Assembly (NCBI GenBank): GCA_017508385.1
Contig: JAFVZB010000068.1
Location: 62,001-126,000, forward strand
Length of the DNA stretch: 64,000 bases
Direction: 5' to 3'
From: Lentisphaeria bacterium
GTDB lineage: Bacteria > Verrucomicrobiota > Lentisphaeria > Victivallales > Victivallaceae
Part shown: positions 15,433-21,797 of the stretch, in pieces
Numbering within the stretch: the first letter of the stretch is position 1
How the letters are laid out: the number at the start of each line of letters is the position of its first letter
Notes under the pieces: generated by a model
What the model was told of the DNA's origin: nothing
The model's input: the letters and a program-made list of their open reading frames with translations, nothing else
Database searches by the model: none
Position numbers and translations under genes: made by a program

Positions 15433-15543
15433 AAAAGCAAAAATCCGCTTGTAAAATATATAAGCGGGTGCAATATTATAGATGTGCGTTTGTGCTGAAA
15501 TGCATAAATGCGTGATGATTTACAACCGTTATATTTCAGCAAA

Positions 15544-15684
15544 TATGCCTAAAACCGACCAAGTAAGAAGTTTATTTGCCGCAACAACAGGTGAAATGTA
15601 TCCGGCTGGATTGTATCTTTACGATCTTGAGCCGGACGTTTTGTCGCATTGTTGTGGCAGGTTCTTGGTCGGACCTTAGGCATA
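15544..15684 (+). ncRNA. Putative structured RNA, rod-like (6S RNA-like shape)
   Basis: Five nested helices can be traced by eye. Pairings are 15544-15552 with 15676-15684 (9 bp); 15555-15563 with 15664-15672 (9 bp); 15578-15587 with 15649-15658 (10 bp, one G-U); 15601-15607 with 15630-15636 (7 bp); and 15610-15615 with 15620-15625 (6 bp, one G-U, loop TCTT). A 14/5-nt asymmetric bubble lies between the second and third helices. A TATATT (15530-15535) sits eight bases before the first pair, and a T8 tract lies at 15702-15709. Shape and probable length (about 145-170 nt) resemble 6S RNA, but identity is inference. The fold works on either strand; plus is chosen from the -10 and T tract. Confidence 0.5.
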
Positions 15685-15781
15685 GTGTGAGGAACGTCTG
15701 GTTTTTTTTATGCCTGAATAAATCCGAACATCAAATACCGTGGAGTGCCTTTCTCTTTTTTACCATAGTATTTTTGCTGAG

Positions 15782-15810
15782 TTGAACAAAATACTGATAA
15801 AAATTATAAA
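15782..15810 (+). promoter_or_regulatory. Promoter of the AIDA-repeat giant gene
   Basis: TTGAAC (15782-15787), a 17-base spacer and TATAAA (15805-15810) lie 24 bases before the ATG at 15834, leaving a very short leader with GAGGAAAAGAGAAA as ribosome site. The separate promoter implies the upstream structured RNA is not this gene's leader. Confidence 0.5.
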
Positions 15811-15833
15811 TAACGAAAAGAGGAAAAGAGAAA

Positions 15834-18800
15834 ATGGCGGCTATCCACATTTCCCGCGGTCAAATCAGTTCAGGTCTGATTGTTCTAAACAACTCCATGT
15901 ATGTTTCAAACGGCGGAGTAGCGAACTACACTACCGTCGATTCCAGTGGGTATATGTATATCTCAAGCGGCGGCAAAGCGAACGACACTACCGTCGATTC
16001 CGGTGGGCGTATGTATATCTCAAGCGGCGGCAAAGCGAACAGAACTACCGTCTATGACCATGGGTCTATGCATATCTCAAGCGGCGGCGAAGCGAACAAC
16101 ACTACCGTTAGCAGTGGGTATATGTATATCTCCAGCGGCGGCGTAGCGGACTTCACTAAAGTTAGCAGTGGGTATATGTATATCTCCAGCGGCGGCAAAG
16201 CGAACAACACTACCGTCGATTCCGGTGGGCGTATGCATATCTCAAACGGCGGCGTGGCGAACAGCACTACCGTCTATGACCATGGGTCTATGCATATCTC
16301 AAGCGGCGGCGTAGCGAACTACACTAAAGTTATAAGTGGGTATATGTATATCTCAAGCGGCGGCGAAGCGAACAGCACTACCGTCAATTACGGTGGGGAT
16401 ATGTATATCTCAAGCGGCGGCGTAGCAAACTACACTACCGTTGACTATAGCGGAAATATGTATATCTCCAGCGGCGGCGAAGCGAACAGCACTGACGTCT
16501 ATGACCATGGGTCTATGCATATCTCAAACGGCGGCGTAGCGAACAGCACTAACGTCAATTACGGTGGGGCTATGCATATCTCAAGCGGCGGCGTAGCGAA
16601 CAACACTACCGTCGATTGGCTCGGGTCTATGTATATCTCTAAGGGCGGCGAAGCGAACAACACTACCGTCAATTCCGCTGGGTCTATGTATATCTCAAGC
16701 GGCGGCGAAGCGAATAGCACTACCGTCAATTCCAGCGGGATTATGTATATCTCAAGCGGTGGCGAAGCGAATAGCACTACCGTCAATTCCAGCGGGATTA
16801 TGTATATCTCAAGCGGTGGCGAAGCGAACAACACTACCGTCAATTCCGGTGGGTCTATGTATATCTCAAGCGGCGGCGAAGCGAATAGCACTACCGTCAA
16901 TTCCAGCGGGATTATGTATATCTTAAGCGGCGGAATAGCGACAGAACTTTATTTGAAAGCCGGTGGAGCTCTCTGGAATTTTTCTTTTAATGAAGATAAG
17001 CATTTCGCCAAAATCAACGGTGTTGCAGAAATTTCTCATAACGTGTTTGTAGTTGAAAGCAGTATGCTTGTTTCCAGCGGCGGCGTAGCGAACTACACTA
17101 CCGTCAATGACCGTGGGTCTATGTATATCTCAAGCGGCGGCGTAGCGAACTACACTACCTTAAGTTGGGCTATGTATATCTCGAACGGCGGCGTAGCGAA
17201 CAACACTACCGTTAACTCCAGAGGGACTATGTATATCTCAAGCGGCGGCGTAGCGAACAGCACTGCCGTCAATGCAGACGGGCGCATGATTATATCCGGC
17301 GGAACAGTAAATAATACCACAGTTAATTCCTATGGCAGTCTTTATGTTTCCAACGGAGGAAAGTGTCAAGACACTATCGTTAATGCCCAGGGACGTATGT
17401 TCGTTTACAGTGGAGTTGCAAGTGACACAACTGTAAATTCAGGAGGATCTCTGCATCTTGACGCCGGCAGTGGAAATTTCACATACCAAACTACGATCAA
17501 TTCCGGTGGAAAAATGACTGCCGATGGAGGCGTGATTAATAATACAACAGTGAAATCCGGAGGATCGCTTGTTTGCTATTATGTAAACGGAAAAAATCTT
17601 ATTCTTTCCCGTGGTGCTGTGTTGGGCGGATTTTCTTTTGAAGATGAAAAGAAAATTGATACAATAACAAATGGTTCCGCAATTTTATCTCCCTCTATTT
17701 ACATATCAGGCTATAATATGACTGTGTCGGATGGCGGAGTAGCAACAGGAACGACTGTTGGCGAAAGTATGTTTACCGGAGATATTGTACTTGGGGTTGG
17801 CGGGGGCAATCTCCGTGTTTACAGTGGTGGTATTATTTCAAAAACGATTGCCGCTTCTGATGGAAATGTAAACGTTTATTCCGGCGGTATTGCAAACAGT
17901 ACATTGGTTGATTCCGGCGGTTCTATGTGTGTTTACAGTGGGGGCTCTGCATTTTATATAAAAGAAAACGGCGGTTACGTAGATGTTAAAAGTGGAGCAA
18001 ATGTGAGCTTTATTCCCAATACCATCGACGGGCTGACGTTGAGCCATACTCTGTACGAAAAAACAACACTTCATTCCGGTACAGTGGCGAATAACATGAC
18101 CGTCAACTGGAATGGTGCGCTTTATATTTTCAGCAGCGGATTGGCAAATAACACAACTTTTAATGGCGGATTCTTGTATATTTACAATGGCGGTGTTGCA
18201 AGCAACACTACCGTAAAAACAGAAGGCGGTCCTAATTCTAATGTTGTAAAAATTTACAGCGGAGGTGTACATAAAGGTCGTCTGAACATGAACAGTGTCC
18301 GTTTTGGCACTATTGTTTCTGCTTATCAAGGTGCAATTATTGATTTTACAGTGGCTGATGTTGCACCGCAAAGTGATTATCTCATCAATAATGTTTCTCA
18401 GATTTCCGGTGCTCCTACCTATACTATCACGGTCAAAGCTGACCAGAAAGAGGGTACTTACAATTTGGCTCAGGAGGCAGGGGAGTTTACCGGTACACTC
18501 ACTATCGGAGATGATTCCAAACGTTATGGCAATATCACTGTAAATGGTGATACTGTTACCTATAACAATGTGAAATATACTTTGAGGCAGAAAGATGGCA
18601 ACCTCAATCTTTTTGTCGGCGACTTTTCTCTGCTTGCCGCTCCGACTTATACGCTATCACCTGCGGAGGGATGGACTGCCGGCGATGTAGTCATTACCGT
18701 TGTCTTTGACAAGGAATCCGTTCTTAACGAGTATTCACTTGATAACGGTTCCAAATGGCTGAAGTGTGAGGGAAACACGATAACCGTTTCCAATAACGGA

Positions 18801-21797
18801 ACTGTTCTTCTGCGTTCATCAGATTCCAATGGTATTTCAAGTACGGTAACTACCGTTGATATCAGCAATATCGACAAAGAAAAACCGGTTGTATCCGCTG
18901 CTGCTGAAACTCCGTCATCTTACGTCAGCAAGGTTACGATCACAGTTTCCGCAACCGACAGCCAGAGCGGTATCGACAAAATTGAATACAGTCTCGATAA
19001 AAAACAATGGTTTGCCGTAAGTGGAAATTCTTACACTGCAACTGCCAACGGAACTGTTTATTTCCGTGCCACTGACAAGGTGGGGCTGGTTTCTGACATC
19101 AAAAGCGTCTCAGTAAGCAAAATAGATGTTGAAAAACCGACTCTTCTTGTTACCGGAAATCCGACAGAGTTTACCGAAGAAAGTGTGGTGCTCGCCATTA
19201 CAGCAACCGACAAGACCAGCGGAATCGACAAGGTCGAATACTCCATTGATGGAGCTGATTACAAGAGCGTAACCCTTGACGCTCAGGGCATGGGCACTCT
19301 CACCATCGACAAAAACTGCAAAGTTACTGTGCGGGCATTTGACAAAGCCGGACTCTTTGCCGAAGAGGTGGTGACAGTTGACAAGATAGAGAAAGATGCT
19401 CCTGTAATAACGATAAAATCCGATCCTGCATCCTGGACAAATGCCGCAGTTGTTACCGTCAGTGCCACCGCAACCGATGATGCAAGCGGCGTTAAGAGTC
19501 TTGAATACTGGAATGGAACTGAATGGGTCGCAGGTTCATCCGTTGAAGTCACCGAAAACAATACTGTTGTCAAATTCAAAGCTGTTGACAATTTCAACAG
19601 AAGCAGCGAAAAGAGTTTTACCGTAAACTTCATCGACCGTATCGCTCCGTCAGCAGTGATTTCAGGCAACTCAGAAAAACTTGTAAAAGAGTTGACGCTT
19701 TCAGTTTCAGCAACCGATGATGCAAGCGGTATTTCTTCGGTCAAATACAGTTTTGACAACAGGGTTTGGAATGAGGGAAAAAGCGTATTGGTCACAGACA
19801 ACGGAACCGTTTATTTCCAAGTCACGGATAAAGCGGGCAACGTTGTCACCGTCTCCGAAAAAGTGGTCAACATAGACAACGTTAAACCGGAACTCACTGT
19901 AACCGGAAATCCGGCAGCGTATCAGGAAAACGATGTTATCCTGCGTGCAACCGCCACAGATAATCTCTCTCCGGTGGTATTCATCAGTTACAGTTTAGAC
20001 AATAAATCAACATGGCAGCTGTATTCAGATGATGCTCCATGTGTCGTCACCGGAAATCAGACCGTCTATTTCAGAGCTGTGGATTCAGTGGGCAACATTA
20101 CTGAAAAGGCAATAGTCGTTGATAAAATCGACAAGGATAACCCGGTAATTTCCGTTTCAGGATACGATGGCAAATGGATAAATAAAGATGTTATTTTAAC
20201 CATCAACGCCACCGACGCTTCAAGTCCTGTTGTGAAAACAGAATACCGCATCGGCGACAATGGCGAGTGGATTTCAGGCAAAAGAGTTGTTGTCACCGAA
20301 AATACAAAGGTTTATTTCCGTGCCACCGACTCGATAGGACACGTCACCACGAGCGATATCGTTATCGATAAAATCGACAAAATCGCTCCTGCCGCTCCGC
20401 AGGTCTCGGCTGACATCACCTCATGGGTAAATAAAGATGTGACGCTTTCTGCGGTGTTTGCGGCAGACTCCGTGAAAAACGAATACTCTGTCAATGGCGG
20501 AGCTTATCAAACTTACACCTCAAGCGGGGTCATCGTAAGCGAAAACGGAACCGTTGATTTCCGTTCTACCGATGCCGCAGGAAATATTGCCGTTACCGCT
20601 TTTGAAGTCAAAAACATTGATAAAACAGCTCCGGTAATTACAGTTTCAGGTTTATCCGCAACCAGAACACGCCGTCCGGTCACCGTCACCGCCGATGCCG
20701 CAGACTCTGCCAGCGGAGCCAAAACGCTTGAGTACAGTTTCGACAACAAAACATGGCGTTCAGGTGCTTCAGTTACCGTAACAGAAAACTGCACAATTTA
20801 TTTCCGTGCCGGAGATGTCGCAGGTAATACCGGCGTTGTAACTGCGGTGGTCGATAACATCGTTGAAACTCCGCCGGATTCAAGTCTGCTCGGCAATGGC
20901 ACAAGTCAGATCACAGGTTTCGATTCCGTCAGGGGAAAAGTCGGATTTGTTGCAGTCGATGGCAATGTTTCTCCGCAGTGGCAGGGCGTCTGGGAGTGGA
21001 GCGGAAAAGATATCTCTACATGGCGTGTAGCCGCAGTTGGCAAGTTTGCCGGAAGTGCCTCAAACAACGATGGTCTTCTGCTTCAAAACACCTCCAATAA
21101 CACATTCGCCGCCTGGAGTGACCTCGGCAGAGGCGACTACGGATACGTGAGTCTTGCCACTGTCGATGGAAACTTTTCAGCCGTCAGCATCGTTGACCTC
21201 GGCGGAAGCAGTAAGTTTGACGATGTCCTCATCAGAGATGAGAACGGCAGCACCGGAGTAGTCATTGATGGCACGACCTACCACGATATCTGGCACGTCA
21301 ACGACGGTGAATATTCCGCATGGGAGTTTTACGGTTCAGGCAATTTCGGCGACAACATCAGCTCACTCGTTGCCAGAAACTGTTACACCAATCACCTCGT
21401 ACTTTGGGCAAACAATGACATCACCTTTGAAACCTGGGATTGGAGCATCCGCACTCTCGGCTATCTCGGCAACGATTTTGAATTTGCCGCTGTCGGAGAT
21501 TTTTACGGTGATGAAACAGATGATATCCTCGTCCGCAACAACAAGGATAACAGTCTGTGGGTCTGGGATGACGGCAACGCCTCGACCGCCCGTTGGGTGG
21601 TGACTCCCGAAAAAGGCTTTGCGGTCGAGGGAGTCGGTGATTACAACGGAGACTGCAAAGATGATATCCTCGTGCGTGAGTACAACACAAAATGGGGCGG
21701 TCTCGGTTACTATGCTCCGGGAACAGATACCCTCTGGAACGACCTCAACGCCCGTATTGAGACAGGTTACGAAAGCAATTTTGCCATTATAGCGTGA
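15834..21797 (+). CDS. Giant AIDA-repeat, Ig-like and FG-GAP-like surface protein
   Basis: 1987 residues, unusual in every part. Residues about 20-375 are 18 near-identical 18-19-residue AIDA-type repeats (MYISSGGVANNTTVxxxG). After a spacer (FSFNEDKHF...) come more, increasingly divergent repeats to about 830, broken by a second similar spacer (FSFEDEKK...). About 930-1680 holds nine Ig-like modules (YSLDNGSKW, NGTVYFRATD-type motifs, linker IDK-x-x-P). The last 300 residues carry FG-GAP/VCBS-like motifs (VGDFYGDETDDILVR, VGDYNGDCKDDILVR). There is no N-terminal signal peptide and no autotransporter barrel, so type I or another secretion route is inferred. It is probably a cell-surface adhesin or stalk. 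The promoter is 24 bases upstream. Confidence 0.88.
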   Translation: MAAIHISRGQISSGLIVLNNSMYVSNGGVANYTTVDSSGYMYISSGGKANDTTVDSGGRMYISSGGKANRTTVYDHGSMHISSGGEANNTTVSSGYMYISSGGVADFTKVSSGYMYISSGGKANNTTVDSGGRMHISNGGVANSTTVYDHGSMHISSGGVANYTKVISGYMYISSGGEANSTTVNYGGDMYISSGGVANYTTVDYSGNMYISSGGEANSTDVYDHGSMHISNGGVANSTNVNYGGAMHISSGGVANNTTVDWLGSMYISKGGEANNTTVNSAGSMYISSGGEANSTTVNSSGIMYISSGGEANSTTVNSSGIMYISSGGEANNTTVNSGGSMYISSGGEANSTTVNSSGIMYILSGGIATELYLKAGGALWNFSFNEDKHFAKINGVAEISHNVFVVESSMLVSSGGVANYTTVNDRGSMYISSGGVANYTTLSWAMYISNGGVANNTTVNSRGTMYISSGGVANSTAVNADGRMIISGGTVNNTTVNSYGSLYVSNGGKCQDTIVNAQGRMFVYSGVASDTTVNSGGSLHLDAGSGNFTYQTTINSGGKMTADGGVINNTTVKSGGSLVCYYVNGKNLILSRGAVLGGFSFEDEKKIDTITNGSAILSPSIYISGYNMTVSDGGVATGTTVGESMFTGDIVLGVGGGNLRVYSGGIISKTIAASDGNVNVYSGGIANSTLVDSGGSMCVYSGGSAFYIKENGGYVDVKSGANVSFIPNTIDGLTLSHTLYEKTTLHSGTVANNMTVNWNGALYIFSSGLANNTTFNGGFLYIYNGGVASNTTVKTEGGPNSNVVKIYSGGVHKGRLNMNSVRFGTIVSAYQGAIIDFTVADVAPQSDYLINNVSQISGAPTYTITVKADQKEGTYNLAQEAGEFTGTLTIGDDSKRYGNITVNGDTVTYNNVKYTLRQKDGNLNLFVGDFSLLAAPTYTLSPAEGWTAGDVVITVVFDKESVLNEYSLDNGSKWLKCEGNTITVSNNGTVLLRSSDSNGISSTVTTVDISNIDKEKPVVSAAAETPSSYVSKVTITVSATDSQSGIDKIEYSLDKKQWFAVSGNSYTATANGTVYFRATDKVGLVSDIKSVSVSKIDVEKPTLLVTGNPTEFTEESVVLAITATDKTSGIDKVEYSIDGADYKSVTLDAQGMGTLTIDKNCKVTVRAFDKAGLFAEEVVTVDKIEKDAPVITIKSDPASWTNAAVVTVSATATDDASGVKSLEYWNGTEWVAGSSVEVTENNTVVKFKAVDNFNRSSEKSFTVNFIDRIAPSAVISGNSEKLVKELTLSVSATDDASGISSVKYSFDNRVWNEGKSVLVTDNGTVYFQVTDKAGNVVTVSEKVVNIDNVKPELTVTGNPAAYQENDVILRATATDNLSPVVFISYSLDNKSTWQLYSDDAPCVVTGNQTVYFRAVDSVGNITEKAIVVDKIDKDNPVISVSGYDGKWINKDVILTINATDASSPVVKTEYRIGDNGEWISGKRVVVTENTKVYFRATDSIGHVTTSDIVIDKIDKIAPAAPQVSADITSWVNKDVTLSAVFAADSVKNEYSVNGGAYQTYTSSGVIVSENGTVDFRSTDAAGNIAVTAFEVKNIDKTAPVITVSGLSATRTRRPVTVTADAADSASGAKTLEYSFDNKTWRSGASVTVTENCTIYFRAGDVAGNTGVVTAVVDNIVETPPDSSLLGNGTSQITGFDSVRGKVGFVAVDGNVSPQWQGVWEWSGKDISTWRVAAVGKFAGSASNNDGLLLQNTSNNTFAAWSDLGRGDYGYVSLATVDGNFSAVSIVDLGGSSKFDDVLIRDENGSTGVVIDGTTYHDIWHVNDGEYSAWEFYGSGNFGDNISSLVARNCYTNHLVLWANNDITFETWDWSIRTLGYLGNDFEFAAVGDFYGDETDDILVRNNKDNSLWVWDDGNASTARWVVTPEKGFAVEGVGDYNGDCKDDILVREYNTKWGGLGYYAPGTDTLWNDLNARIETGYESNFAIIA
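15895..16940 (+). repeat. Tandem 54-57 bp DNA repeats encoding AIDA units
   Basis: About 18 head-to-tail units built around TATGTATATCTCAAGCGGC. Several adjacent units (for example within 16680-16920) are identical or differ by one or two bases, meaning recent duplication or conversion at the DNA level, not only protein conservation. Copy number is likely to vary between strains and may be misassembled from short reads. Confidence 0.9.

Follow-up and report, generated by a model that had tools for sequence, protein, structure and literature searches.

The window analyzed here, a stretch of 64,000 nucleotides from a Lentisphaeria bacterium (assembly GCA_017508385.1, contig JAFVZB010000068.1), contains a gene for a giant surface protein that is preceded by a segment predicted to fold as a long rod. 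A sequence-only reading had proposed that this segment is an independent RNA resembling 6S RNA. The question raised by this locus is whether the rod belongs to an RNA that acts on its own or to one that acts on the gene located behind it.

The Rod RNA in the Window

Folding of positions 15530-15710 of the forward strand gave a minimum free energy (MFE) of −74.3 kcal/mol versus −43.1 ± 3.8 for 200 shuffled sequences, none of which folded as well (0/200; z −8.3). The weaker fold of the reverse strand (−58.5, z −5.9) is what a contribution of G-U pairs would predict. The rod previously described at 15544-15684 was recovered in the MFE fold with the same span and the same helix positions, and with more than the 41 bp originally counted: the helices were 15544-15552/15676-15684, 15555-15563/15664-15672, 15574-15587/15649-15662, and 15590-15615/15620-15645 (the last with a small bulge), and the base of the rod was extended by pairing of AACCG (15524-15528) with a 3′ CUGGU. 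The T8 tract reported 3′ of the rod was also found (U8, 15702-15709). The TATATT box noted at 15530 is not a promoter but a conserved RNA segment, UAUAUUUC, that pairs with GAAAUGUA (15593-15600) in an alternative fold (see below). Analysis with cmscan detected no Rfam family at this region. The rod RNA at 15530-15710 is real, and the original observation was both confirmed and enlarged. The coordinates of the features considered in this work are shown in Table 1.

Table 1. Features of the leader RNA and of the gene located downstream (positions of the window).
Feature	Position	Strand	Remarks
Probable leader promoter	15449-15477	+	−35 TTGTAA 15449-15454, 17-nt spacer, −10 AATATT 15472-15477; inferred from the consensus of copies
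5′ hairpin P0	15486-15511	+	Arms 15486-15495/15502-15511; −14.1 kcal/mol, z −4.9; sequence-variable, 3′ of predicted start site
Strand 1, AACCG	15524-15528	+	Partners: CCGG 15602-15605 (terminator fold) and 3′ CUGGU (rod); pairing in 91.6-98.3% of cells; A3 shows double changes
5′ half-domain	15530-15600	+	P1, UAUAUUUC 15530-15537/GAAAUGUA 15593-15600; P2, GCAAAUA 15539-15545/UAUUUGC 15573-15579
Rod (antiterminator-type fold)	15544-15684	+	z −8.3; 87.1% of cells paired; 27 double-change pairs
Strand 2, apical hairpin P3 and strand 3	15601-15645	+	Strand 2, UCCGG 15601-15605; P3, 15608-15627; strand 3, GCCGGACG 15631-15638
Terminator-type fold of 3′ half	15632-15709	+	P4, CCGGACGU 15632-15639/ACGUCUGG 15694-15701; P5, GGUUC 15660-15664/GGACC 15671-15675; U8, 15702-15709
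Downstream gene	15834-21797	+	1987-aa AIDA-type (Ag43/AIDA-I stalk repeat) surface protein

Distribution of the RNA Family

BLAST searches of the own assembly revealed five copies including that of the window, the other four being diverged (70-78% identity to it), and, with a permissive cut-off, matches were detected in 46 of 60 relatives, about half of these being strong. Using covariance model R1, which was built from 28 copies, the RNA was found in 81 of 137 genomes searched from the order Victivallales (about 60%), mainly in two of its families and with up to eight copies per genome, while some near-complete genomes contained none. In a phylum sample of 388 genomes there were 58 carriers, 57 of them in the order and one outside it but in the same class. 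The named carriers were mostly Lentisphaeria/Victivallales metagenome bins, together with Victivallis vadensis DSM 14823. Viral contigs yielded one pattern match (L087), which was unconfirmed by the covariance model. Genus g48 harbors a divergent subfamily (loci L155-L176) with up to eight copies per genome, in which strand 1 is UCGGU and strand 4 is GUCCGGC. In three species the element is located behind the same peptidase-like gene (L014 (L082), L016, and L017), apparently an old, vertically inherited site.

Rfam searches of the window, ten other loci, and one full leader returned only tRNAs, and no aptamer of a known riboswitch class matched in the sequences scanned. Neither was the RNA described in the open-access literature searched, a kind of library that cannot prove absence. 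The family is thus new to Rfam and to the literature searched.

Two Mutually Exclusive Folds Are Conserved

The rod was evaluated on a sequence-only alignment of the copies (A1), where 87% of cells were paired versus less than 50% in slid controls, and where 27 pairs showed double changes, amounting to 175 such cells versus 64.5 ± 6.3 in shuffled alignments. The rod covaries strongly among the copies, and the earlier proposal that selection acts on RNA structure was strongly supported. Its outer variable helix was paired in only 70% of cells on a MAFFT alignment, in which this hypervariable part is partly misaligned.

Analysis of the same alignment A1 by RNAalifold gave different helices, namely UAUAUUUC/GAAAUGUA, GCAAAU/AUUUGC, CCGGACGCUU/..GCGUUCGG, and GGYUC/GGRCC, with 98.2% of cells paired. 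This alternative fold was paired in 96.9% of cells in alignment A2 (62 distinct rows; 60 double-change cells versus 16.5 shuffled) and in 94.5% in A3 (89 distinct rows; 112 double-change cells versus 33.5 ± 6.8 shuffled). Since A2 and A3 had been fitted to the rod model, these alignments gave no favor to the alternative fold. Across copies, P1 was paired in 92-99% and P2, the loop of which contains GACCAA, in 91-95% of cells. P4 and P5 also covary, P5 having the loop UUGGUC; one pair of the P5 hairpin (GGYUC) is U-A in about half of the copies and C-G in the rest, a change that the rod neither requires nor explains. The 3′ stem was compensated in distant copies (CCGGUC/GACCGG in L167, GGGUGC/GCAUUC in L152, and GCUGGGCG/CGUCCGGC in genus g48), and its complementarity scored 24.0 for arms of the same copy versus 21.4 ± 0.2 for mismatched copies, 11 standard deviations above. 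These results showed that both folds are kept by compensatory change. The two folds share strands and are mutually exclusive: strands 1 and 2 and strands 3 and 4 pair in one of them, whereas strands 2 and 3 and strands 1 and 4 pair in the rod; hairpin P3, which has a conserved UCUU loop, is common to both. This is the pair of exclusive, conserved terminator and antiterminator folds that an attenuator should have.

Family-wide, the 3′ half forms a hairpin (GCCGGACG../..CGUYCGG) followed directly by the T-tract. A run of at least five T's was present at the terminator position in 81% of 110 copies versus 5% of control windows, so that a U-tract follows the terminator stem, as in an attenuator. 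In the window, the 3′ half by itself (15632-15701) folded as a 70-nt hairpin of −33.2 kcal/mol (z −4.9) directly 5′ of U8, which is long and irregular in comparison with a classical intrinsic terminator. For the full RNA, the rod reached −92.0 kcal/mol and the terminator fold −75.4 kcal/mol; being 17 kcal/mol more stable, the rod would prevail at equilibrium, and the terminator would need kinetic or ligand stabilization. When growing prefixes of the RNA were folded, P1 formed first and the rod took over near 15651-15663. Based on this order, we propose a delaying or gating effect of the 5′ half-domain on the rod, with the terminator as the competing outcome.

The frames crossing this region were also considered, since a fold could arise by chance from codons. 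In the window copy, an open frame of 59 aa crosses the rod, and open frames were found in 52 of 110 copies versus 31 expected, but no single frame is kept: relative to two anchors the open frames occur in numerous combinations, and the spacings vary in all three phases; many copies contain stops, and no Pfam family was matched (best E 0.11). As no consistent frame exists among copies, a coding region was rejected and is barely credible.

Promoter and 5′ End

Most copies contain TTG-N16-19-TATATT upstream, in the same place as the candidate promoter of the window, and the start of the −10 box mostly lies 10-15 nt 5′ of a variable hairpin similar to P0 that is also present in most copies. The best-match score for this promoter was 9.6 versus 8.5 for shuffled AT-rich sequence, a modest excess that reflects the AT-richness of the DNA. 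The site at 15449-15477 was missed by a generic promoter scan, so the putative leader promoter rests on its recurrence when copies are compared. With this consensus-derived promoter, the element occupies the position of an attenuator, between a promoter and a codirectional gene. It had also been claimed that the giant gene has its own promoter. By eye, TTGAAC-17-TATAAA can be seen at 15785-15815, between the leader and the ATG of the giant gene, and constitutes a possible second promoter, but this site was absent from the list of the generic scan.

A Second Module in About Half of the Copies

Within about 90 nt past the T-tract, GCTGGATTTCGC or a closely similar sequence was found in 51 of 109 copies (chance 3.5%), marking a second terminator-antiterminator module. 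It is often followed by a second terminator-like hairpin, and in 33 copies the 5′ arm of this hairpin is complementary to GCTGGATTTCGC, as in L076 (GCTGAATTTCAC/GTGAGATTCAGC) and L032. The duplexes of these 33 copies scored a mean of 20.8 versus 11.3 for shuffled arms. Own pairs exceeded swapped pairs only slightly (20.8 versus 19.7 ± 0.4), so covariation of the second module is suggestive rather than strong. The window copy lacks the module. At several loci (L044, L064, L004, L152, and others) a second conserved module located 20-300 nt past the core contains a hairpin reusing the terminator strand, the hairpin GAUUUCgCAGC-gaaa-GUUGgGAAAUC as read by eye, and another terminator, CCGCGAAATCCAGC...GGATTATCGCGG, which is complementary to GCUGGAUUUCGC.

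The RNA Is Linked to the Gene Located Downstream

The first ORF of at least 100 aa was codirectional with the RNA in 91 of 104 copies downstream and in 58 of 95 upstream (Fisher p 2e-5; simple ORF calling, among copies that are related to one another). Pairs of copies with related neighbors (at least 100 aa, AIDA excluded) shared them downstream only in 28 cases, upstream only in eight, and on both sides in one. These linkage counts are to be taken as indicative, since the copies are mutually related. In two families, a WYL regulator 87% identical is located 3′ of the element while the upstream genes are unrelated.

Linkage of this kind speaks against an independent RNA, and the resemblance to 6S RNA was not supported. 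The Rfam 6S (ssrS) covariance model gave no match in the window, the own genome, or 60 genomes of the order, while controls were positive in E. coli, B. subtilis, and others; the 6S RNA of the order (60 genomes lacking an Rfam match) is undescribed or very divergent. The rod of 6S RNA (ssrS, RF00013; 6S-flavo, RF01685) is likewise long and has internal loops, but a 6S RNA would be expected in few copies untied to a downstream gene. In an independent trans-acting small RNA, 6S-like or other, the promoter, rod, and terminator would form a self-contained transcript of about 225 nt, the gene behind being incidental. The RNA's own promoter-like sequences, T-tract, and rod shape, the lack of a canonical 6S RNA in the order, and the possible promoter of the giant gene all agree with this. 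Against it stand the 5-8 diverged copies in some genomes and their absence from some near-complete ones, the conserved neighbors and codirectional genes on the downstream side, the conservation of a second fold besides the rod, a predicted intrinsic terminator that would not be expected for a 6S rod, and the half of copies that run into a second conserved module beyond the T-tract. We consider this explanation unlikely, and the terminated RNA may have an additional role in trans.

The dispersed, multi-copy, and inverted-repeat-like character of the element, with lineage-specific groups of copies such as those of genus g48, could also suggest a palindrome of mobile or repeat origin (MITE/REP/attC-like) that was inserted close to genes. 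The copies within the genome of the window are only 70-78% identical, though, the G-U pairs are strand-specific, two folds covary, the orientation to the downstream gene is fixed, and the element keeps the same gene across species. A mobile palindrome was rejected because the copies are diverged and tied to downstream genes, and it is highly improbable.

The 88 downstream proteins included six AIDA-type adhesins, several glycosyltransferases, and lipoproteins, as well as one or two each of Mrr- and GmrSD-type restriction proteins, WYL regulators, radical SAM, TerD, caspase-like, and NusG-domain proteins. The target genes are thus accessory, coding for AIDA-type adhesins, glycosyltransferases, restriction/defense-type proteins, and lipoproteins, which points to a role in accessory functions of surface and conflict rather than in one metabolite pathway. 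Pfam and NCBIfam scans revealed no metabolic theme among the downstream proteins, and a single riboswitch-like theme was discarded on these grounds; since the genes share no common pathway, no signal can be named. A regulator specific for AIDA-type genes was discarded too, because only six of the 88 downstream proteins are of this type and one of several AIDA-type ORFs in the genome has the element. A defense-only regulon was rejected because restriction, WYL, GmrSD, and other PADLOC-type matches were a minority. Several large AIDA-type repeat ORFs are present on contigs C30, C33, C39, C51, C69, and C72 of the own genome (G000), and the RNA lies upstream of that of the window only. At another locus (L174:2142-2678), the first gene 3′ of a copy codes for a NusG-domain (RfaH/UpxY-like) protein.

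Adhesins, glycosyltransferases, and island genes are the usual clients of processive-antitermination systems. In a processive-antitermination leader of the put/EAR/JUMPstart-ops type, the rod would load onto RNA polymerase, possibly with a NusG paralogue, and allow it to pass terminators in long surface or island operons. The nature of the targets, the NusG-domain protein behind one copy, and the second terminator in about half of the copies would fit such a leader. However, each copy has its own terminator/antiterminator pair, so that local attenuation suffices, and for most first genes a long operon is not evident; we therefore regard this reading as quite unlikely.

Discussion

We propose, with a probability of roughly two in three, that this region holds the core of a bistable leader that acts in cis by transcription attenuation. 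Most likely, this RNA would decide between stop and read-through of transcription into the surface, sugar-coat, or defense-type gene located 3′ of it. An RNA started from the promoter at about 15450-15477 would contain the 5′ hairpin and then four strands able to exchange partners. In the OFF fold, strands 1 and 2 would pair in the 5′ half (AACCG/CCGG, UAUAUUUC/GAAAUGUA, and GCAAAU/AUUUGC) and strands 3 and 4 in the 3′ half (CCGGACGU/ACGUCUGG), which would place an intrinsic terminator at U8. Pairing of strand 2 with 3 and of strand 1 with 4, the ON fold, would turn the entire RNA into a long rod and block the terminator stem, and RNA polymerase would continue into the downstream gene, in the window that of the giant AIDA-type protein. 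We infer from these folds that RNA polymerase stops at the U-tract and that the rod prevents this, the balance presumably being set by a ligand, a protein, another RNA, or the speed of RNA polymerase. As the P5 loop UUGGUC is complementary to GACCAA of the P2 loop, a loop-loop kiss could nucleate the switch.

The proposed leader is similar to trp-type attenuators in having four exchangeable strands, with strands 3 and 4 forming a terminator followed by U's and strands 2 and 3 an antiterminator, between a promoter and a codirectional gene. Unlike them, strands 1 and 4 also pair, so that the ON state is one rod of about 190 nt, and many copies per genome head unrelated genes; no consistent reading frame runs through the core (a short 5′ stretch was read by eye). 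Transcriptional riboswitches likewise have a conserved 5′ half-domain competing with a 3′-half terminator and occur as multi-copy leaders, but here there is no Rfam riboswitch match and the genes lack a metabolic theme. The put, EAR, and JUMPstart/ops elements also lead surface-polysaccharide and other long or accessory operons, whereas the RNA described here has its own terminator and antiterminator and no Rfam sequence match to them (JUMPstart, RF01707). Acido-Lenti-1 RNA (RF01687) is a structured RNA reported in Lentisphaerae and listed as not cis-regulatory (PMC2864571). It differs from the present RNA, for which cmscan gave no match.

Few regulatory RNAs have been described in Lentisphaeria to our knowledge, and this leader would add a large family to that class of bacteria. 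It would also join unrelated surface, glycan, and defense-type genes in one RNA-controlled regulon. Because compensatory changes reveal which strands take part in each fold, the mechanism is directly testable by point mutations in vitro. More tentatively, and with somewhat less than even odds, the family may represent a novel class of large RNA switch with two states, about half of its copies having tandem terminators, which would serve one order as a plug-in controller of its accessory genes for surface and conflict functions and respond to a shared signal. If a common ligand or protein indeed sets the switch, it would reveal the signal for surface and defense change in gut and environmental Victivallales.
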